Part shown: piece by piece, positions 19,057 to 31,386 of the stretch
Position numbering within the stretch: the stretch's first letter is position 1
Layout of the letters: every line of letters starts with the position of its first letter
Origin: Globomyces pollinis-pini
Lineage: Eukaryota; Chytridiomycota; Chytridiomycetes; Rhizophydiales; Globomycetaceae
Length of the DNA: 38,353 bases
Direction: 5' to 3'
Assembly (NCBI GenBank): GCA_025399215.1
Contig: MU621258.1
Coordinates: forward strand, 1 to 38,353
Translations under genes and position numbers: made by a program
The notes under the pieces: generated by a model
Databases searched by the model: none
Seen by the model: the letters and a program-made list of their open reading frames with translations, nothing else
Told to the model about the DNA's origin: nothing

Positions 19057-19849
19057 ATGTGGTTCTCTTGCATACCCTACCTATTCCCAAAGACTATCAA
19101 AGAAAAGGAATCAGATGATAAACAATGTGCCCATCCCAATTGCGACGAACATGTACTGTTGAAGAATATTCTCAAAGCAAATAAAAAATGGGTATCAGTT
19201 ACTTGGAATCTAATTGTAATAGGCAGCCCATGTTTCCCATAAGAAGCCCAAATTCTTTCATAAGTTAGCGCAGGGTCAGAGTCCAGAGTTGCTTTGGATT
19301 GGTTGTTCGGATTCTAGAGTTCCACCGGCCATAATCACTGGAAAGAAACCTGGTGATATTTTTGTTCATCGTAATGTTGGAAATACTATTTATACCTCTG
19401 ACAATAACGTAAATGCCGTCATTGAATATTCAGTCCACCACTTGAAAGTAAAGCATGTAATCGTATGTGGACACTATGGATGTGGTGCAGTTTTAGCTAG
19501 TATGGGTTGTGATACTGGCTCCCCAACCATTGAAGAGTGGATCAAGAACATTCGAAAGATTTACACCGAATATGAATTTCAATTTGAGTCACTAGACAAG
19601 CCTGATCAGATCACAATGATGTGTAAATTAAATGCTATTCTTAATGCTCGTAATGCTTGCTTGACTTCTGCTGTACAGCATGCATGGGAAGAAGGCCAAG
19701 AAGTTGTTGTACATGGGTGGATCTTTCAATTAAGTAATGGCGAAATTGAAGATTTAGAGTTCATTGTTTCTAATGCTGAAGAAGTGGAAACGGTGACGAA
19801 GATGGCCATTGAGAAGGTTCTACATAGTGTTGAGCAAAAAGAAGTATAG
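19057..19849 (+). CDS. stand-alone beta-class carbonic anhydrase
   Basis: Two exons, 19057-19191 and 19223-19849, over a 31-nt intron give about 253 residues. It interconverts CO2 and bicarbonate. The zinc ligands and dyad of the beta class are present: CSDSR (Cys ~73, Asp ~75, Arg ~77) and CGHYGCG (His ~129, Cys ~132). The N-terminal helix LLKNILKANKKW leads into the intron, which lies directly after the Trp codon in phase 0. The two fusion genes downstream have theirs at the same place. A short Cys/His cluster (CAHPNCDEH) precedes the helix. No targeting peptide is obvious, so it is probably cytosolic. Its 3' end and flank are duplicated at 21641-22215. Confidence 0.93.
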
Positions 19850-20335
19850 TAGAGTAATAAATGATCTTGGTCAATACTTTCACGATCCTTTGATATTCGT
19901 AAAATTAGTTCCATAAGTTTGAAAACTTTTGGTGAATTGTAGTGTTTATGATGAATTTCATTCATTACTGCGTTTGATGTGGTTTCAGATACTTCCGATG
20001 TATATGACGCGTTTCTGATCAAACAGCAAATGAAAGAATACTGGAAAACTAGTGAATAATTAATAATGATAGAATTTCAGGAGATTATAAAGAAAAACAA
20101 GCATAATCCAAGCGAAGGTGGAACACATGTGATGTTATACAGAGACGGTCAATCAGCCTCGAACTAAACAAGATAACATCAACTACAACACCATCAATAG
20201 TACTACTTCCATGATGAACTTTACGTGTCTGTATCTAGTCTTTCATAAGTTGGTCATGACTTGGCTTCAAGTGACAGCTGCCAAAAACATTACAACTCAA
20301 CTAAAAGTCATTTTCGCGATTCTACACTTGTCTAA
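19757..20335 (+). repeat. segmental duplication copy 1 (CA 3' end plus downstream flank)
   Basis: It starts inside the CA coding sequence at the codons for EFIVSNAEEVET and runs ~485 bp past its stop. By eye it is roughly 90% identical to 21641-22215, with a more diverged patch near 20265-20320. Both copies include an ACGCGT box (20007-20012 here). It ends abruptly after TCTACACTTGTCTAA. Confidence 0.85.
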
Positions 20336-20450: not shown

Positions 20451-21452
20451 CTAGCAAAAATTTGGAGTTATTCTAGGATTCTTATATATAAGTTTCAACA
20501 AGCTACAATTTTTTACAAATTTGGAAAAAGTACGAGAAGGTAAAGACAAGATATTCAGTTCCGAAATGTCCTTTTCTTCCACGAGAAGCTTCAAAGTATC
20601 GTGAGTAATTCGGTCGTTCTGGCAAATCGCGGCTATCATCCCCTGCAAAGCGTCAAAAGTGACAAATGTGACTTTGACTGATCTTTTCAGAGACAATTTG
20701 ACATACTTGCTTAAAACTAGAGCTTCCAAATAAATTGTAAGGTCGTAAAAAGTATTTCGGTATTCTTCCAACATACAAAAGTCGGAATAAGGTGGAAACG
20801 CGTAACCACTAATATTGTTCCCCTGGTATATTTGATCGTAGATCATGCGAAACATTGCCGTTTGTCGGTCTGGAGTCATCCCAATAATAAACCTTGAACA
20901 ATCAACGAGATATGAGGGCCAATAAGTATCCAAAGGTGCGATTCTAGGGTCGTTTTTGCATTCTTCTTTAACTTGTCTTGATGATATCCAGCACAAATGC
21001 TCACCAACAGGAAGCGACTTGATTTCTCCAAGCATCACAGCTTTGGCAACACTAGTGTCCACAATAAGAATATGCTTCACTGAGGAGTCTATAAATTTAA
21101 AGGATGTCTCTTTGACAACAGGACGAATCCAAGGATTAGAAACATATCCTCTGTCATCAGAGACTTGAGGTGAAATTGCATCATTTGGAGTTTGCCGTAC
21201 AATAAGAGTACAATTTTGTTGCAGAATAATAGGTGAGTCGGTTTTTCCAGTATCCCCTTCCATGTACAAGACAATTCTGCTTGGTGGGAGGTCTTCAGGA
21301 AACCAAGTAGTGGCCGAAAGAAGAGCAGTCTTGAGGGCAAAAAGGGGTTTTCCAGGACGAAGGTGAATGATGGTAGACTTTGTAGAGTTGAAGAGTTTTA
21401 CTGTATATTCCAATGGTTCAGTATCAGGAGTAACAGTGGTTGGTGACACCAT
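20451..21452 (-). CDS. unknown protein; PIN-like nuclease fold suspected
   Basis: A single exon of 333 residues from ATG 21452 (good purine context, AAAAATGG) to TAG 20451. Residues ~15-90 look like a small beta-rich ubiquitin-like module (EYTVKLFNST, then LPPSRIVLYMEG and NCTLIVRQ). Residues ~135-300 carry acidic positions in a PIN-like order: LIVDTSVAKA, then RQVKEEC, then VTFVTFDALQGMIAAI. PIN domains cut RNA using such clustered acids, but the match is from pattern only. The gene is intronless, unlike nearly all neighbours, and sits on the opposite strand between the two copies of the CA-flank duplication, as if inserted. The ORF continues upstream of the ATG only via TTG. Confidence 0.6.
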   Translation of the reverse strand: MVSPTTVTPDTEPLEYTVKLFNSTKSTIIHLRPGKPLFALKTALLSATTWFPEDLPPSRIVLYMEGDTGKTDSPIILQQNCTLIVRQTPNDAISPQVSDDRGYVSNPWIRPVVKETSFKFIDSSVKHILIVDTSVAKAVMLGEIKSLPVGEHLCWISSRQVKEECKNDPRIAPLDTYWPSYLVDCSRFIIGMTPDRQTAMFRMIYDQIYQGNNISGYAFPPYSDFCMLEEYRNTFYDLTIYLEALVLSKYVKLSLKRSVKVTFVTFDALQGMIAAICQNDRITHDTLKLLVEEKDISELNILSLPSRTFSKFVKNCSLLKLIYKNPRITPNFC

Positions 21453-21640
21453 TTTTTGTTTGTTGAAAAAACTCAGCAAAGGATTTTGTAATAATAATTC
21501 CAACAAAGATACGATCAATTCTTTTATTTAAGGATATGATTGGTTTTCATCTTAGAAACTTCTGCGTGTGAAATTTCGTACAGAACTCTAAGACAGAGTA
21601 TTACCGTACAAAGATTGAATTTTTCTGTAGTAATTGATCA

Positions 21641-21720
21641 GAGTTCATTGTTTCTAATGCTGAAGAAGTGGAAACAGTGGCAAAGATGGCCTTTGCGATG
21701 CGCAGAAAGAAGAGTAACAA
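21641..21720 (+). pseudogene. relic of a carbonic anhydrase C-terminus
   Basis: The bases for EFIVSNAEEVETV-KMA are retained and match the stand-alone CA, then an internal deletion changes the frame (FAMRRKKSN). No CA body lies upstream, only the start region of the opposite-strand gene. It shows that a second full CA copy once stood just before the fusion gene. Confidence 0.7.
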
Positions 21721-22215
21721 ATGATCTTGGTCAATGCTTTCACGATCCTTTGATATTCGTAAAATTAGTTCCATAAGTTTGAAAACTATTCGTGACTTGT
21801 AGGTGTTTATGATGAATTTCGTTCATTAATGCATCATCATGTTTGATATGGTTTCAGATACTTAGATGTATATGACGCGTTTCTGATCAAACAGCAAATG
21901 AAAGAATACTGGAAAACTAGTGAATAATTAATAATGATAGAATTTCAGTAGATTATAAAGAAAAACAAGCATAATTCAAGCGAAGGTGGAACACATGTGA
22001 TGTTATACAGAGACGGTCAATCAGCCTCGAACTAAACAAGATAACATCAACTACAACACCATCGATAGTACTACTTCCAGGATGAACTTTACGCGACTGT
22101 ATCTAGTCTTTCATGAGTTGGTCATGACTTGGCTTCAACTGACTCCATGTTTCAAAGAGCCCAGTTACATTTCAAATCGACTAAAAGCCATCCTCGCAAT
22201 TCTACACTTGTCTAA
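21641..22215 (+). repeat. segmental duplication copy 2, now the upstream region of the TPR-PB1-CA gene
   Basis: Homologous to 19757-20335, ending in the same TCTACACTTGTCTAA five bases before the fusion gene's ATG at 22221. It carries an ACGCGT box at 21875-21880. The promoter and 5' leader of the fusion gene therefore descend from the 3' flank of a carbonic anhydrase gene. Confidence 0.85.
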
Positions 22216-22220
22216 TTATA

Positions 22221-24243
22221 ATGTCTTCGAAAGAGGAATTGATTTTATGGGTGAAGGGAATTGGTGAATTTAAAAAAGGAAACTTCAATGCTGCATTCGA
22301 ATACTTTAGAGGTGTTGGTGGTTACGCTAGAATTATGTTCAACTTGGCAATGATTCATACTAATAATCAAGATCATAAATCTAGTATTGCCATGTATTCC
22401 AAATGCACTCAAGTCGATAATTATATGGCTGTTGCTTATTTTCAAAAGGCAAATGCACATTGGCTACTGAGGGAAACGAGTGATGCTAAAAAGTCCTATC
22501 AAATGGCCATTGATGTTTGTTATCATTAATTAATCAATAGTTGCTATTGGACAATGATTACATTGATTATGAACAATTGGGAATGAAATACAAGTTATAT
22601 AGATCTGAAATCGTATTTAACGTAGCAATGTGCTATGCAGATGAGGGAAACACAGCCAAGATGAATGATTGTATTGCTAAAGCAAGAAAATTGGCTACAA
22701 CGTCAGAACAGAAAAGATTTATAGATACAACAAAATCAGATATATTCACTGTCCCACTCAACCTGATATTCGATGTGACTGAATCAAAGAAGAATAATTT
22801 AACAGATAAGAGTTATTTGCAAGATGGAAGGGTGGCCTTGGACAGGAATGCAGCTGAACCAGGTTTTAATGGATTTGCAGGTGCCGCATTATTGAATCCA
22901 GAGTTAAAAAACCCAGAGAATTCTGGTACTTTAGTTCGTGGAAAAGGGAATAATCGGTTGGATAACATATCGAACCGATCTTCATCTTTAGCTGCTAAAA
23001 ACGATTCAAATGCTTATCCATCACCTGGTCGTACATTAAAGAATGAATCTACCAGAAAATATACCAGAAAGTCCTCATTGCCTGAATTCCGGAACAGTAA
23101 TAGACCATATCAAATTGATCGCATGCCAAACCCTATACCAGAGAGCGATGGAAGCGTAATGGAGTATGAAAAAGTGAATGAGTTTGATTTACTGGCATAC
23201 GAAGTTGAAAATACCAGAATTGATGCATATCAAAAAACCCAAACTTTGGGTAGAAAAGACCAAACCGGATATCAAGCAAATCAATCCTTGAGCAGAAAAG
23301 GCGATCAAATTAAATTAAAAATCAATGGCCATGCAATTGGAAACCAATCTTGTATGCTCATGGTTGATTATTCTTCCATACAAATCGATCAATTGGTCTC
23401 AAAAATACAACAGAAGTTAAAGACAAAAGACGGGTTTAATTTGGCGTACTTGGACGAAGATACCATGGTGACCATATTTGATCAAGAGGATTTGAATATT
23501 TTTTTGGATGATAATGATGGTTCATTTGTAATCTATTTGATTGGAAAAGAAGTTGAAGAGCAAGATCAGTTGAAGCAAATTCTAACTGCAAATTTGGCAT
23601 GGGTAAGTTGTTTTGCAAATTAATTCAATAGGCCGAACAAACTGAAAAATCACAACCTAAACTGTTTGAAGAATTAGCAAGTGGTCAAAGTCCTACGATG
23701 CTTTGGATAGGTTGTTCAGATTCAAGAGTTCCTCCATCATTGATTACCGGAAGAAATCCCGGTGAAATGTTTGTACATCGTAATATTGGGAATGGTGTGT
23801 ATCCCATGGATGACAATGCTAATTCCGTCATTGAATATTCGGTGGAGCACTTGAAAGTCAAAGACGTTATTGTTTGTGGTCATTTCGGATGTGGTGCGGT
23901 TATGGCAGGAATGGGAGGAGATACAGGTATGGAATTCATAGAAAAATGGATCAATCAGATTCGTAAAATTTATTCCAAATATGAAATTAAAATGGAATCT
24001 TATAATCAATCAGAGCAAGTTGAAATCATGTGTCAAATCAATGCGATTATTAATGCACGTAATGCTTGTTTATCAAAACCTGTTCAACATGCGTGGAAAG
24101 TTCAACAACCTGTTACAGTTCATGCTTGGATATATCAACTTAAAAATGGTCGTATAAAGGATTTGGGATTCAATGTGTCTAGACCAGAAGATATTGATCT
24201 TACTACACAATTGGCGATTAAAAAGGTGTTCCAGAGTGTATAA
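22221..24243 (+). CDS. NoxR/p67phox-like NADPH oxidase activator fused to beta-carbonic anhydrase (TPR-AD-PB1-CA)
   Basis: Three exons, 22221-22514, 22541-23602 and 23632-24243 (introns 26 and 29 nt), encode about 655 residues in one frame. Residues 1-~150 are the p67phox/NoxR TPR block, with YIDYEQLGMKYKLYRSEIVFN as in fungal NoxR, which binds Rac-GTP. Residues ~165-192 (DIFTVPLNLIFDVTESK...DKSYLQDG) match the activation region. A Ser/Asn/Arg-rich linker follows. Residues ~353-435 are PB1 (KLKINGHAIG, FNLAYLDEDTMVTIFDQEDL). From ~441 there is a complete beta-CA with zinc ligands Cys480, His536, Cys539 and Asp482/Arg484. NoxR proteins activate NADPH oxidase at membranes; here the same chain could supply or sense CO2/HCO3-. 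Splicing over TGG|GCC is what joins the two parts. Confidence 0.9.
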
Positions 24244-24873
24244 GTAAAAGTTTAATTAAATAAAGTTTCAATTATATGAAGTATTGTGTGCAATGAATAA
24301 GCTTATTGGCGTTTTAACACGTATTATATAGCAATGCAACCTAAAAAAATCAGGAACTAATTTGTCTATAGAGAATGCTTCGATTTTCCATACAAAATAA
24401 CTATGAGCAGCGTTCCATAAATAACCAGGAACAACGTTATAAAACATAGTTATGAGCAACGTTATAACACATAGTTGTGAACAACGTTATTAAATAGTTA
24501 CAAACAACAAGTGCAAGGTTACATCAAATAATCATCTACATTGTTACATTCAATAATCATGAACATGGCTGCATAGTTTGAATCGATAAGTTTTTGATGG
24601 GATTGTGTCATTTTCGTGTCAGATCTAATTCAACACAAATTCTTTACCAATTCATTTGATGGAAATGACAAACATTCAATAAACAGTCAACAATTGAAAC
24701 CAAGTGGATTATTGTAAATCAAATTCCCTTCCCAAGAGTCTATTATTAAATCCATAGATTCCCCCTTCCAGATCCTTTCAATCAGATAACAGATTGAGCC
24801 AATTGGAACCAAAACAAGAAAAAAATCACTTTCGCCTCTTATCCACAGATTGTGAATTTGTAATATTGAAATA
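24244..24873. promoter_or_regulatory. intergenic region upstream of the PB1-CA fusion, with short repeats
   Basis: About 630 bp separates the two fusion genes. It contains the 3' end of the first (an AATAAA-type signal lies just after its stop) and three 25-bp repeats (separate entry). I could not find a TPR-coding remnant here, so the second fusion does not seem to extend upstream. Confidence 0.4.
24431..24505. repeat. three tandem 25-bp repeats centred on AACGTT
   Basis: The palindrome-containing core AACGTTAT starts at 24433, 24458 and 24483, exactly 25 bp apart. Each is followed by an A-rich ACATAGTT-like stretch; the third unit is more diverged. They lie ~370-440 bp before the ATG of the PB1-CA gene and could be protein-binding sites or a simple minisatellite. 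Confidence 0.7.
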
Positions 24874-26079
24874 ATGGAAAATCGAAGAATTGGTGGTGGT
24901 AGAACTCAAGAAAGAAATCGTGGTGATTCTGCTACTAAAAAGTATACTAGAAAATCTTCTCTACCTGAATTCCGTAATAGTGCTACTAGGCCTTATCGAA
25001 TTCCAAATGAACCTTTACCTCAAACTGATATGTTGGAATATGAACGTGCTGATGATTTCGACTTTTTGGCTTATGAAGTCTCTAATACCAAAATCAGCAA
25101 TTCTTCAACTGGAAATCGTCAACCAAGTCGTAGGGATAATAAGGTGAAAGTTAAAGTCAATGGTCATGCTATTGGATGTCAAACATGTATGGTTTTGGTT
25201 GACTATCAAACAGTCACTTTGGATCAATTGATTGCTAAAATTGACCAGAAATTAAAAGTGAATGTAAAATATAATTTGGCTTATTTGGATGGAGAAACTT
25301 TGGTGACATTATTTGACCAAGAAGATTTGAATATCTTTTTGGAAGATAATGTAGGATCCTTTTGTCTATTTTTAATAAGTAAAGATGCTGATGATGAAGA
25401 TCAATTGAATCATATACTAGCAGCTAATTTGGCATGGGTAATTAATGTAACTGTTTTTAATATATAGGCGAAAGAAACCGAAAAGTCACAACCGCAGTTA
25501 TTTGAAGAACTAGCTAGCGGCCAGCATCCAACAATGCTTTGGATAGGCTGTTCCGATTCAAGAGTTCCTCCATCGGTTGTAACTGGAAGAAATCCAGGTG
25601 ATATGTTTGTTCATCGAAACATTGGAAATGGTGTCTACCCAACTGATGACAATGCTAATTCGGTTATTGAATACTCAGTTGAGCACTTGAAAGTCAAGGA
25701 CGTTATTGTTTGTGGGCACTTTGGATGTGGTGCAGTGATGGCAGGTATGGGTGGTAATACGGGTATGGAATTCATAGAAAAATGGATCAATCAAATTCGC
25801 AAAATCTATTCCAAATATGAATTTCAAATGGAATCATATGAAACCTCTCAACAAGTTGAAATCATGTGTCAAATCAATGCGATTATTAATGCACGTAATG
25901 CATGTTTATCAAAACCTGTTCAACATGCTTGGAAAAACCAACAATCTGTTACTGTTCATGCTTGGATTTATCAGCTGAAAAATGGTCGTATCAAAGATCT
26001 TGATTTTAACGTTTCGAGGCCCGAAGATGTTGAGATAAGTACCCAATTGGCAATCAAGAAAGTCTTTGCAACTATTTAA
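24874..26079 (+). CDS. PB1 domain-beta-carbonic anhydrase fusion protein
   Basis: Two exons, 24874-25437 and 25468-26079, over a 30-nt intron give about 391 residues. It is a close paralogue of the preceding gene without TPR and activation region. A basic start (MENRRIGGGRTQERNRGDS) leads into the shared KKYTRKSSLPEFRNS linker motif, then PB1 (~90-170: KVKVKVNGHAIG, YNLAYLDGETLVTLFDQEDL) and a full beta-CA (Cys ~216, Asp ~218, Arg ~220, His ~272, Cys ~275). The intron follows the Trp codon of ANLAW, as in the other two CA genes. Nucleotide similarity of the CA exons of the two fusions is very high in places. PB1 domains pair with other PB1 domains (NoxR with Cdc24 in fungi), so this protein may bring CA activity to the same partner. 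Confidence 0.92.
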
Positions 26080-26222: not shown

Positions 26223-27801
26223 CTAATGTGTCTTAACGGAACTCTTTGTTGCTGCACTGTTTGCCGGAGCACTCTTGTTCATATTTGATACCGATGAAGA
26301 TGATTGTTTAAAAATCTTTGGAACTCTATCAAGATAAAAAATATTAAATAAAGAATGAAGTGATCGAAGTACACCTTTGAGTGCTTGAATTCCAATTGCA
26401 ATTTTATCATTGTTCAAATAGTCATTGTAATCAATTGCTTTGTATACGTTTTGGTAGGCAACAATAATAGCAATTTGAATCAAAAGAATAGCAAATACGG
26501 GTCGATCGTAACCCCATAATGTTTTAAGAGTATTTGGAATACCCTTGTTATCGAGGTTGAGTCTCACCATATAAAAGATAAGAAGTGTAGTTGGTACAAG
26601 ATTCCACAAAAACATTGTTATAATCCAATAAGGATTAAAAGTTCGCCATACTTTACGTAAACCTGAAGTACAATATGACCATTTTTTAAGACCTGGGATA
26701 CTACAAACATTGATATAGACCGATCCAGCCAAAAATACATGAAGTAACAATAATAGAACGCAGACTGGATAGATCGACCATCTTGGTATGAAACTAAGTT
26801 TTACAGAGTAAAGCAATAACACGGTCAAGTAAGCATTTCCAAGTGTTGCCAACCCATAGAACCAATTTCCAACAAAACTTAGAGTGTATAATGTAGCATT
26901 ACTTCCTGTTTGTCCCATATCTTGATACACATAAGTACAAACAAAAGCAAAATAGAGTAACTGTGAAGCAATTTGAGCTACAATATACAATTTATAACCC
27001 TTTCTTAATTTCATGATACCATGGATAACACCCAACCCATAAAAAATCAATTGTATAAACAATAAACTGACACGAATCACATCATAAATCACAAATGGAC
27101 CGGTACTAGGGACAAATGCCAAATTTTTGAAATCAGGAGTGAATAAAGTCCTAGTTTAAGTTGATAGATTTTTACCATATATTCTTTACAGAACCTTTTT
27201 GAAATGTCACCATTTTACCTGTCAATAATCCTAAATCAGGGTCATCATATTCTGTTGATTGTGGTAGTAGTTTAACCGAAATTGGATCACCACTACAACC
27301 ATCATCTGCATATACCAAAAAATCACCATTCTTTTTACACTTGTAGTATTGATCTACACATGTAGTGTCATCAGCCAAGACAAGAACTTCCACCAAACCA
27401 GTAAAGAGCGAACCATTAATGGGTTTAACCGAACAATATGTGTTATCATTAGCTCCAAGATGAACCAAAGATTCATAAGCGTCATCATCTGGATCTAATA
27501 AGGCAGGCGACCCACTCATCCAACCTTCCGAAATCTTCAAATCTAGAGATGCAAAACAACAACCAGCATAGATAGGAGTATACTTGTATCCACATTGACC
27601 GATAATATATTCACCAGCAAAATCAGTGTATAATGGAGCCCAAGTCTCATCTTCATCAGGTTCATAAGCTTCTATATCATTGATGTTGAAGATATACATA
27701 GCATTTGGAGGACCTTCACAGGCATACGTGTTTAGCCATTGAGACTGTAAGATTCGATCTGCCAAGATGGTCTTGAGCAGTAAAATCTTTTGGAGAATCA
27801 T
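26223..27801 (-). CDS. receptor-like protein A: secreted Cys-rich ectodomain plus ~7 membrane helices
   Basis: Two exons, 27801-27176 and 27150-26223, over a 25-nt intron, about 517 residues. A signal peptide (MILQKILLLKTILA) precedes a ~190-residue ectodomain with conserved cysteines (CEGPPNAMYIFNI, CGYKYTPIYAGCCFASLDL, TYCSVKPINGSLF, TTCVDQYYKCKKNG). The intron sits exactly at the end of the ectodomain (KNIW|TLFTP). The second exon has about six strong helices plus a weaker seventh (VIYDVIRVSLLFIQL..., GYKLYIVAQIASQLLYFAF, YWIITMFLWNLVPTTLLIF, SLHSLFNIFYL), ending in a Ser/Ala/Lys-rich tail. The layout suggests a plasma-membrane receptor, but I recognise no named family. First of three tandem paralogues. 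The ACGCGT box lies 27 bp before the ATG. Confidence 0.85.
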
Positions 27802-27827
27802 GTAAAGTTTTAAGAAAGTAGAACGAA

Positions 27828-27833
27828 ACGCGT
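27828..27833 (-). promoter_or_regulatory. ACGCGT box upstream of receptor-like gene A
   Basis: ACGCGT, identical to the MCB element bound by fungal MBF, lies 27 bp before the start codon. The same hexamer sits at nearly the same distance in the two paralogues. Confidence 0.45.
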
Positions 27834-27942
27834 AAACAATAAACTCTTTCTAATGGGTCATGTGAATTGATGGATCATAAACACAAAACAGGAGATGGGA
27901 TACTTACACAACTTTTTTTATTTCGGTATTTTGTTAATATAA

Positions 27943-29516
27943 TTAATGATTCTTTGTATTAGTAGTTCCGGTAGTACTATTAGGTACTTCACTTCGAGTC
28001 ATTTTAGAGATATTCAAAGAAGCAGTTTTGAAAATAATTGGAACTCTATCAAGATACAAAATATTAAACAAAGAATGAAGTGAACGTAATATTCCTTTCA
28101 AAGCTTGAACACCAATACCAGCTTTATCATTATTCAAATAATCATTTCTTTCCACAATTTGAAATACATTCTGATAAGATGCAATAATGATAATTTGAAC
28201 TAATAAAATTGCAAATACTGGTTTATCGTATAACCAAATCATTTTAGCTGTAGTTGATCCATTTCTTTTTTCTACACCTTGCCAAACGATATAGATGATT
28301 AATAATGTGGTTGGAATAAGATTCCACAAAAACATGGTTATAATCCAATATGGAACAAACGTTCTCCATACTTTTCGTAATCCTGATGTACAATATGACC
28401 ATTTTTTCAAACTGGCGATACTACATACGTTAAGATAAACTGATCCATTTAATAGTAAATGTAATAAAAATAATAGTATACAAACTGGATATAATGTCCA
28501 TTTCGGTACAAAACTGATTTTCACGGAATATAACAGTAAAACAGTCAAGTAACAGTTGAATAATGTTGCTAATCCATATAACCAATTACCAAGATAATCC
28601 ACATGTGATAAAGTAGTAGCATTACTGATGACTGTATCTTGATAAATGTATGACGAAACGAATGCCATGTAGAGTAATTGTGAACATAATTGAGCAACCA
28701 AGTATAATTTATAACCTTTTTGAAGTCTAATGATAGCTTGAACAGCACCCCATCCATAGAGAAGAAGTTGAAGTGAGAGTAATCCAATACGTAGAACGTC
28801 AGAAGCAACAAATGGATTCGGATTGGGTACAAATACAATGTTTCGGTCACTAGGGGTAAATAGAGTCCTGGAATAAATACAAATATTATATACCATATCT
28901 TTTGGGTTGTTCCCTTTTGAAAAGTTACCATTTGACCTTCAAATGTACCTAAAGATGGATGAGACAGTTCTGTCGATTGTGGTTGGAAAGAGACAGATAT
29001 AGGATTTCCATTACAACCATTTTCATTATAAACCAAAAATTCACCATTCTTTTTACACTTGTAGTGTTGATCTACACATGTAGTGTCATCAGCCAACACA
29101 AGAACTTGCACTAATCCCATGAATAGTGACCCATTCATCGGTTTGACTGAACAGTAAGTATTACCATTTGCACCAAGATAAACCAAACCATCATATGTAT
29201 CATCTGAGGGTAACAAGGTTGGAGAACCACTCTTCCATCCTTCCGATATCGTTAAATCAAGAGATGCAAAACAACATCCATTATAAATAGGTGTTTTCTT
29301 TATCCCACATGTACCTATAATATATTCACAAGCAAAATCAGTGTATAATGGAGCCCAAGTCTCATCTTCATCAGGTTCATATGCTTCTATATCATTGATA
29401 TTGAAGATATACATGGCATTTGGTGGTCCATCACATGAATAACTATCTAACCATTGTGATTCCAAAATTTTATCAGCATGAGCAACAGAAAGTAGTATCA
29501 AATAGTTTAGTATCAT
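27943..29516 (-). CDS. receptor-like protein B: secreted Cys-rich ectodomain plus ~7 membrane helices
   Basis: Two exons, 29516-28894 and 28867-27943, over a 26-nt intron, about 515 residues. I start at ATG 29516 because it opens a signal peptide (MILNYLILLSVAHA); the longer frame upstream begins only at a TTG. The ectodomain repeats the family cysteines (CDGPPNAMYIFNI, GCCFASLDLTISEGWKSGSP, TYCSVKPMNGSLF). The intron again separates ectodomain and membrane part (QKIW|TLFTP). The membrane half is very close to gene A (KKWSYCTSGLRKVWRTF, YWIITMFLWNLIPTTLLI, LRSLHSLFNILYLDRVP). The short tail is Thr/Asn-rich. High similarity to A and lower to C indicates A and B are the younger pair. Confidence 0.85.
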
Positions 29517-29542
29517 ATTTAAATGATAAATTGTTTGAAAAA

Positions 29543-29548
29543 ACGCGT
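29543..29548 (-). promoter_or_regulatory. ACGCGT box upstream of receptor-like gene B
   Basis: The hexamer lies 27 bp before the ATG at 29516, the same distance as in gene A. Confidence 0.45.
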
Positions 29549-29625
29549 ACTGAATACGGTTTGTATATATAATTTGAAATGGTGATTTGGAAATGAAATA
29601 GTTTAAAAATACAGATAAATTGATT

Positions 29626-31201
29626 TTATTGTGACTTTGCTGTACTAACCGTTCCAAAGTTACTTTTCAAATCACTTTTGTTCATACTTGCATCTTTCGA
29701 AACAGACTTAAAAACACGTCTGATACGATGAAGATATATGATATTAAATAGAGAATGAATAGATCGTAACAAACCTTTGATTTTCTGTACACCAGAAACT
29801 GCTTTATCATTATCTAAATAGTCATTAAAGTCAGTTAATAGAAAAACATTTTGATAAGAAATGATATTCATCAATTGAATGAGTAATATGATAAATATGA
29901 ATTTATCATGAAACCATATACTTTTGATGACACCAACGATAGTGAATTTTGGTAAATTTTGAGAAACAATAAAAATAATTAATAGTGTAGCTGGTACGAG
30001 ATTCCAAATAAACATTGTGATTATCCAATAGGGTATATAGAGTCTCCAAACAGATCTGAATGTAGAAGTACAATATGACCAATTCTTCCATGCTGAAAAA
30101 TTACAAACGTTAATATAAACAGCACCATTTAGTAAAATATGTAACATAAAGAGAATTGTACATACAGGATAAATTGTCCATTGAGGAACTAATTTAATTT
30201 GAAGAGAGTATAGTAAAAATACGTTGATGTAGATGTTGAACAATGTAGCAAGTCCATAAAGCCAATTACCAACATACTCAATCAATTGCCTTTCAAATGA
30301 GCTGTTAGTGTTAACCACAAGTTGATAGATGTAAGATGTTGCCAATGCCATATAGAGCAATTGTGAGACAATTTGAATGACAATAAAGAATTTGTATCCT
30401 TTCCGAAGTGCCAGTAACCCATCAAGAATCCCAGCAGTATAGAATAGAAGTGTTAGTAGTAGAAGAGAAAGTCGAAGGATTTCAGATTTAAAATGGGCAT
30501 TAGGATTTGGAACGAAAAACTTATCCTTAAAGGATGGGGTATAGAGTGTCCTAATATCAGTGACAATTGACTCACCATATAGTTCTTGTAGCTCCGTTTT
30601 GATATGTCACTAATCTACCTTCAAAATTTCCTAGCGCTTGGATATCAAACTGTATGATATTCTGTTGTAAACCAAGTGTATTTGGGGTACCAGTACAACC
30701 TTCGCTAGGGTAAACCAAAAAACTTCCATCTTTGTTGCATTTATAATACTTATCAACACATATATCTTTGTCGTCTGCCAAAAATAGAACTTCTGATAAC
30801 CCATTAAATAGAGAACCATTAATTGGGTTGATAGAACAGTAAGAGTGGTCATTTGCTCCAACGTAAACTGAAGATTCGTACGTAAAGTCGTCTGGTTTGA
30901 GTAGTGTTGGCGACCCACTCTTCCAACCACTTGATAAGTTTAAATCTAGAGAAGCAAAGCAACAACCAGAAAAAATAGGAGTGTACTTGTAACCGCATTT
31001 ACCAATGATAAATTCATTGGCAAAAGCAGTGTAAAGAGGTGCCCAAGTCTCATTTTTTGGAGATTGAGACTTTAAATTCTGGATATTGAAGACATACATT
31101 GCATCTGGAGGTCCTTCACATGAGTAGGAGTCCAACCATTGAGATTGAATAATTCTTTCTGCTTGACTATTTCCTATCAATAACCAAAATAATAATTGCA
31201 T
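29626..31201 (-). CDS. receptor-like protein C: secreted Cys-rich ectodomain plus ~7 membrane helices
   Basis: Two exons, 31201-30576 and 30550-29626, over a 25-nt intron, about 516 residues. Signal peptide MQLLFWLLIGNSQA, then CEGPPDAMYVFNI, KCGYKYTPIFSGCCFASLDL, SYCSINPINGSLF and DICVDKYYKCNKDG. The junction is RTIW|TLYTP, in the same phase (2) as in A and B. The membrane half keeps GYKF, QLLYMALATSYIYQ, NWSYCTSTFRSVWRLYIPYWIITMF and LLRSIHSLFNI, but is the most diverged of the three. Aspartate-free helix interiors and conserved aromatic/Trp positions argue for a receptor or channel rather than an enzyme. The paralogues differ mostly in short surface stretches of the ectodomain. Confidence 0.85.
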
Positions 31202-31221
31202 TGATAATAGTTGGAGAGTTG

Positions 31222-31227
31222 ACGCGT
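31222..31227 (-). promoter_or_regulatory. ACGCGT box upstream of receptor-like gene C
   Basis: The hexamer lies 21 bp before the ATG at 31201. The surrounding bases differ from those at genes A and B, so the shared core is not just a recent duplication trace. Confidence 0.4.
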
Positions 31228-31386
31228 TTTCGTTCCCTTGCTATTAAGGAAAAACATACCAATCATATGACAATTTATATTTTTTAATTTATTAATAATT
31301 CTTGTTTATGATTGGATTCTAATATTTTACCCCACAAAATTCAATTAACGAATGATAAGATACTAGTAAAGCAAGAGAGTACCAAG

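Follow-up and report, generated by a model that had tools for sequence, protein, structure and literature searches.

The chytrid Globomyces pollinis-pini carries a gene, here called gene A, whose predicted product is a NoxR/p67phox-type NADPH oxidase activator fused in frame to a complete beta-carbonic anhydrase (CA), and we conclude from its sequence, with modest confidence, that the product is probably an activator of Nox that delivers a functional CA to the oxidase. The window, meaning the whole 38,353-nucleotide stretch of DNA analyzed, is one contig (C169) of an 18.5-Mb assembly of 459 contigs. Removal of both introns from gene A yields an uninterrupted 655-residue protein that begins with the ATG at 22221, ends with a stop codon closing at 24243, and reads in the order p67phox/NoxR-type TPR block, activation segment, PB1 domain, and CA (Table 1). 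The initial annotation had proposed a single spliced frame containing a NoxR-type TPR block, a PB1 domain, and a beta-CA, and the parts were found where it had placed them by Pfam, phmmer, and hhalign. To our knowledge, the introns of 26 to 31 nt in gene A, its downstream paralogue gene B, and the free-standing CA gene C are about the smallest known in fungi; those of N1, N2, and N3, three of the ordinary NoxR genes in this genome, measure 34, 31, and 28 nt.

Table 1. Features of genes A, B, and C and of the repeat upstream of gene A, in window positions
Feature	Position	Strand	Description
Gene C exon 1	19057..19191	+	Start of free-standing CA; start codon picked by eye
Gene C intron	19192..19222	+	31 nt; same CA position as in A and B
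Gene C exon 2	19223..19849	+	Beta-CA
Copy of 19756-20335 (gene C 3′ end and beyond)	21640..22215		Repeat families D2, D8, D9, D11, D13, D15
Gene A exon 1	22221..22514	+	NoxR TPR block, residues 1-98; Pfam and p67phox alignment
Gene A intron 1	22515..22540	+	26 nt; placed as the NoxR intron of N1-N3 (N4 too, by eye)
Gene A exon 2	22541..23602	+	TPR end, activation-like segment, RKSSLP linker, PB1, first CA helix
Junction stretch, gene A exon 2	23546..23602	+	Encodes first CA helix (EVEEQDQLKQILTANLAW region); open frame shared with PB1
Gene A intron 2	23603..23631	+	29 nt, phase 0, within CA
Gene A exon 3	23632..24243	+	Remaining beta-CA, including stop
Gene B exon 1	24874..25437	+	NoxR-type linker, PB1, first CA helix; without TPR
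Gene B intron	25438..25467	+	30 nt; position equals gene A intron 2
Gene B exon 2	25468..26079	+	Beta-CA, including stop

Pfam analysis of gene A placed the TPR_8, TPR_1, and TPR_2 models above cutoff and found no SH3 domain. A phmmer search of solved structures aligned residues 2 to 211 with human p67phox (8wej_D; E value, 4.9e-17), and the alignment spans both the IDYEQLG motif and the activation segment. Among the p67phox residues that we take to bind Rac, Asp67, Asn104, and Asp108 are kept in gene A, Ser37 is replaced by Ala, and Arg102, presumably a Rac contact, is replaced by Leu101. The Arg102 position is also Leu in N2, N3, and N4 and His in N1, which suggests that the replacement is a trait of the NoxRs of this genome and not a sign that the fusion is decaying. 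Val204 (or Leu) and Lys196 are the residues named for the p67phox activation domain in section 9 of Kawahara and Lambeth (PMC2121648), and these align with Val196 and Lys188 of gene A. The Pfam models, the p67phox match, and the retained Val and Lys thus support the NoxR-type TPR block with YIDYEQLG and the activation-like segment that had been read from the letters alone.

Identification of the PB1 domain depended on the method used. Pfam called no PB1 domain in gene A or gene B, and its cutoff was passed by two of the three ordinary NoxRs compared, the third falling just under. When the PB1 stretch of A and B was aligned by hhalign with the same stretch of those three NoxRs, the match had a probability of 98.8% and an E value of 5.8e-17. 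Basic residues Lys356, Lys358, Lys386, and Lys390 are invariant in the five aligned rows, and an acidic OPCA segment (YLDED...FDQEDL) is present in gene A. A Foldseek search with a model of the gene A PB1 domain returned zero matches at an E value of ≤0.001. The domain check of the 655-residue product therefore bore out the TPR and Pro_CA assignments by Pfam, whereas the PB1 assignment failed by Pfam yet held by hhalign. Between the activation segment and PB1, the motif [YF][TA]RKSSLP occurs in A, N2, N3, and N4 and also in B (window 23046-23090 and 24935-24970), and an EYTRKSS stretch was seen in a Cdc24-like gene, L012. RKSS presumably fits a basophilic kinase site, and for that reason the predicted products of A, B, N2, N3, N4, and L012 may have one kinase in common.

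The CA domain of gene A scored 153 bits against a Pro_CA cutoff of 25.7, with residues 475 to 627 covering the whole profile (positions 1 to 156). Zinc ligands Cys480, His536, and Cys539 and the Asp482-Arg484 dyad are all present, in agreement with the earlier description of a complete beta-CA with Cys/His/Cys ligands and an Asp-Arg dyad, and the best solved-structure matches were the Porphyridium and E. coli enzymes (1ddz and 1i6o). Trp477, Arg502, and Tyr620 sit where bacterial CAs have a non-catalytic bicarbonate site, for which we take the residues of the H. influenzae enzyme as the reference; gene C has Phe at the Tyr620 position. Beta-CAs function as dimers. Gln38, Tyr88, and His92 of the Coccomyxa enzyme correspond to Gln471, Tyr521, and His525 of gene A under a fixed numbering offset of 433, derived by hand from Asp49 and Arg51 as given in PMC3230598. 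For the Coccomyxa enzyme, that paper describes a dimer with the active site at the interface and, with Tyr in place of the Trp of the non-catalytic site, no bicarbonate bound there.

In both A and B, the PB1 exon closes with the first CA helix (DQLKQILTANLAW), in frame, and the join is therefore independent of any guessed splice. The intron inside the CA is phase 0 in gene A and lies at the same CA position in A, B, and C, which, together with a join located within an exon, indicates that the fusion arose inside exons. No frameshift separates PB1 from CA, the frame being open across the join in both A and B. The in-frame fusion of NoxR to beta-CA proposed by the initial annotation is thus borne out, and, as read from the frames, the end of a NoxR gene runs, just after PB1, into the first exon of a CA gene. 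CA exons were 88% identical between A and B and 60% identical between A and C, versus 40 to 46% for the best 80 of at least 569 bacterial relatives. Because the CA of gene A is nearer to B and C than to the bacterial loci, the simplest history would derive the CA part of the fusion from a neighboring CA copy. Upstream of gene A, the copied stretch, which takes in the 3′ end of gene C and the sequence following it, is 92 to 97% like its source in longer stretches and 79 to 86% in short ones, a minus-strand gene (20451-21527) lies between the two copies, and we take the copied end to be a trace of recent local duplication. Farther along the window, at 26223-31240 on the minus strand, lies a two-part family in three tandem copies, in which one part bears cysteine (DAMYVFNI...) and the other, with its many hydrophobic stretches, is receptor-like by eye.

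Gene B lies 0.6 kb downstream of gene A and encodes 391 residues comprising a linker with KYTRKSSLPEFRNS, PB1, and CA. Its frame opens at 24856, shortly before its ATG, and a tblastn search of the whole window with the TPR/activation part of gene A (E value, ≤1) returned gene A alone. Since RKSSLP is also found in N2, N3, and N4, gene B is most simply explained as a NoxR-CA gene copy whose front has been lost. Between A and B, dN and dS were 0.069 and 1.22 for the CA exon (203 codons), 0.271 and 2.24 for PB1 (82 codons), and 0.196 and 0.52 for the first-helix stretch (19 codons); dN was 0.29 with dS undefined for the linker (64 codons), and all parts pooled gave 0.153 and 1.63 (368 codons), the ratios being rough because dS is near saturation. 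We conclude that, by these rates, the A/B split is old and both PB1 and CA are constrained. In a CA tree of the three window CA domains, 12 of the best 80 bacterial loci, and one CA exon from contig C22, A and B paired (83/98); gene C had no firm place, the C22 row was a runaway branch, and the tree was used for the A/B pairing only.

The genome also encodes oxidases and further activators. The TPR/activation part of gene A matched 10 exons, which make up five genes (A and, on contig C4, N1 to N4), and a CA is joined in one of the five. Eight CA matches mapped to six places, three each on C169 and C22, with PB1 joined at two of the six. N1 to N4 lie on the plus strand within 18 kb of C4, at about 72.1 to 90.0 kb (L027, L028, and L039), and a Nox2-like gene lies on the opposite strand between N3 and N4, an unusual activator-oxidase cluster. 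A single 88-nt intron, as in the N4 model, is probably a misreading: by eye, the DNA there shows an 11-residue exon flanked by introns of 30 and 25 nt. NAD_binding_6 gave seven matches, of which some belong to a single gene, and the two that were compared with solved structures are Nox2-like, with human cytochrome b-245 heavy chain as the best match (E values, 4.7e-85 and 1.9e-88); the genome thus has at least two Nox2-like oxidase genes beside four ordinary NoxR genes without CA. These oxidase and NoxR genes, like gene B and the shared intron position of gene C, go beyond the initial annotation. Eight PB1 matches comprised N1 to N3 and five others, including Cdc24-like PH-PB1 and CBS-PB1 genes, which are partner types proposed in section 15 of PMC2121648. 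PMC5785021 reports interaction among NoxR, BemA, and Cdc24 in Epichloe, together with binding of RacA to NoxR. Chitin synthase models matched 33 stretches, 29 of them above cutoff and several belonging to the same gene; matches also occurred in 4 of 14 control bacteria. Together with the SH3-less NoxR type, the chitin synthase matches point to a fungus.

This is the only genome in which the fusion was seen. When genome contigs were searched with the three CA exons, the matches were bacterial CAs: at least 599 stretches matched, and at least 569 of them encode a relative; none of the best 80 of these at least 569 loci had a long N-terminal partner, the open frame before the match being at most 97 residues. 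Viral contigs scanned with exon 2 of gene A yielded 11 pattern matches, none of them a relative. No fusion of NoxR, p67phox, or PB1 to carbonic anhydrase was found in the titles and abstract starts of the open-access literature searched, which agrees with the earlier statement that none had been described.

We propose that gene A is a genuine fungal NoxR gene, the last exon of which became joined, just after PB1, to the first exon of a neighboring beta-CA gene. Its TPRs would bind Rac-GTP, its activation segment would engage the oxidase, its PB1 domain would engage Cdc24/Bem1-type partners, and its CA would be brought to the cytosolic face of the oxidase. At this point of proton release by NADPH oxidation, the tethered CA would equilibrate CO2, HCO3−, and H+, such that the site would be buffered and bicarbonate would be at hand, and the bicarbonate may also speed H2O2 signaling via peroxymonocarbonate. 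As beta-CAs work as dimers, dimerization would also pair the NoxR heads, and gene B, which is TPR-less, might tune the complex by pairing with A through CA or by competing for PB1 partners. Release of protons on the cytosolic side by NADPH oxidation is described in PMC4892433, in which neither carbonic anhydrase nor bicarbonate appears. In animal cells, bicarbonate speeds the oxidation of PTEN by H2O2, probably via peroxymonocarbonate, and the CA inhibitor acetazolamide lowers H2O2-linked PTEN oxidation, as reported in PMC11047460. A tethered CA fits both observations. The benefit of the fusion could be proton buffering, bicarbonate for peroxymonocarbonate, or CO2 sensing, and local pH buffering or CO2/bicarbonate gating by the tethered CA, as first suggested, is plausible, with this animal-cell chemistry as a precedent.

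Several lines of evidence favor an activator that carries a CA: the p67phox match, Pro_CA with its catalytic residues, the hhalign PB1 match, the one-exon join in two genes, an A/B dN far below dS, the Nox2-like, Cdc24-like PH-PB1, and CBS-PB1 genes, and the acetazolamide effect on PTEN oxidation reported in PMC11047460. Against it stand Leu101 in place of p67phox Arg102, a PB1 domain uncalled by Pfam and without a Foldseek match at an E value of ≤0.001, a fusion seen in one genome, and four other NoxRs that manage without CA. More speculatively, and on balance doubtfully, the activator with its CA and the PB1-CA adaptor may form a module that couples CO2/bicarbonate chemistry to oxidant production, setting local HCO3− and H+, and hence peroxymonocarbonate signaling, at each oxidase complex, with a bacterial-type bicarbonate site on the CA (Trp477, Arg502, and Tyr620) feeding CO2 status back on it.

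Alternatively, the CA could be mainly a dimerization or scaffold module whose catalysis is kept but unused for oxidase control or support. The dimer with an interface active site described for Coccomyxa in PMC3230598 is compatible with such a role, as is gene B, which keeps just PB1 and CA as a pairing partner would, but the full set of catalytic residues and the low CA-exon dN (0.069 versus a dS of 1.22) exceed what a scaffold seems to need, and we consider it unlikely. Distinctly unlikely is a neofunctionalized CA that its PB1 and TPR parts direct to sites of polarity (Cdc24, Bem1, and Rac) for CO2/bicarbonate supply or sensing, without oxidase activation. Gene B has been kept without TPR or activation segment, Cdc24-like and CBS-PB1 genes exist, and the Rac-contact position of gene A is Leu, all of which would suit that role, but gene A keeps the equivalents of p67phox Val204 and Lys196 discussed in section 9 of PMC2121648. 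It is improbable that gene A makes two products, a NoxR by retention of intron 2 and the fusion by splicing, with CA in only part of the protein: unspliced exon 2 does reach a stop codon at 23621-23623, shortly after PB1 and directly after LAWVSCFAN, but an intron stands at the corresponding position in genes B and C, which suggests that a CA simply requires its excision. Finally, an assembly or annotation artefact joining two separate genes is scarcely credible despite the 92 to 97% repeats of 19756-20335 just upstream, as these end before gene A, the shared exon and the join in gene B (75.5% nucleotide identity, both frames open) rule out two adjacent genes misread as one, and long divergence of A and B (dS above 1) with dN far below dS makes an artefact very unlikely.

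A kept gene fusion is among the cleanest natural hints that two proteins cooperate, and CO2 chemistry and oxidant signaling may here be physically coupled, with a partial join kept in neighboring gene B. Bicarbonate is reported to speed, and a CA inhibitor to lower, the oxidation of PTEN by H2O2 (PMC11047460), but the titles and abstract starts of the open-access literature searched showed no Nox regulator linked genetically to a CA. Separable TPR, activation, PB1, and CA parts in one gene, together with a natural PB1-CA version, make a link between CO2 and oxidant signaling directly testable.

NoxR-type proteins and beta-CAs are each known families, and their combination is new as far as the searched literature shows. 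Like fungal NoxR and human p67phox (NCF2), gene A has TPRs with IDYEQLG, an activation-like segment, PB1 near the end, and no SH3 by Pfam; unlike them, it has a complete beta-CA after PB1. The ordinary NoxRs N1 to N4 match gene A in domain order, in intron 1 position, and, for N2, N3, and N4, in the RKSSLP linker motif, and before the linker they are 39 to 51% identical to it, identities to N4 being slightly off owing to its one-intron model, but they stop within about 20 residues after PB1, and C4 has no listed CA match. Zinc ligands and the Asp-Arg dyad are those of E. coli- and Porphyridium-type beta-CAs, whereas the CA here is carried at the C terminus of a NoxR or PB1 protein.
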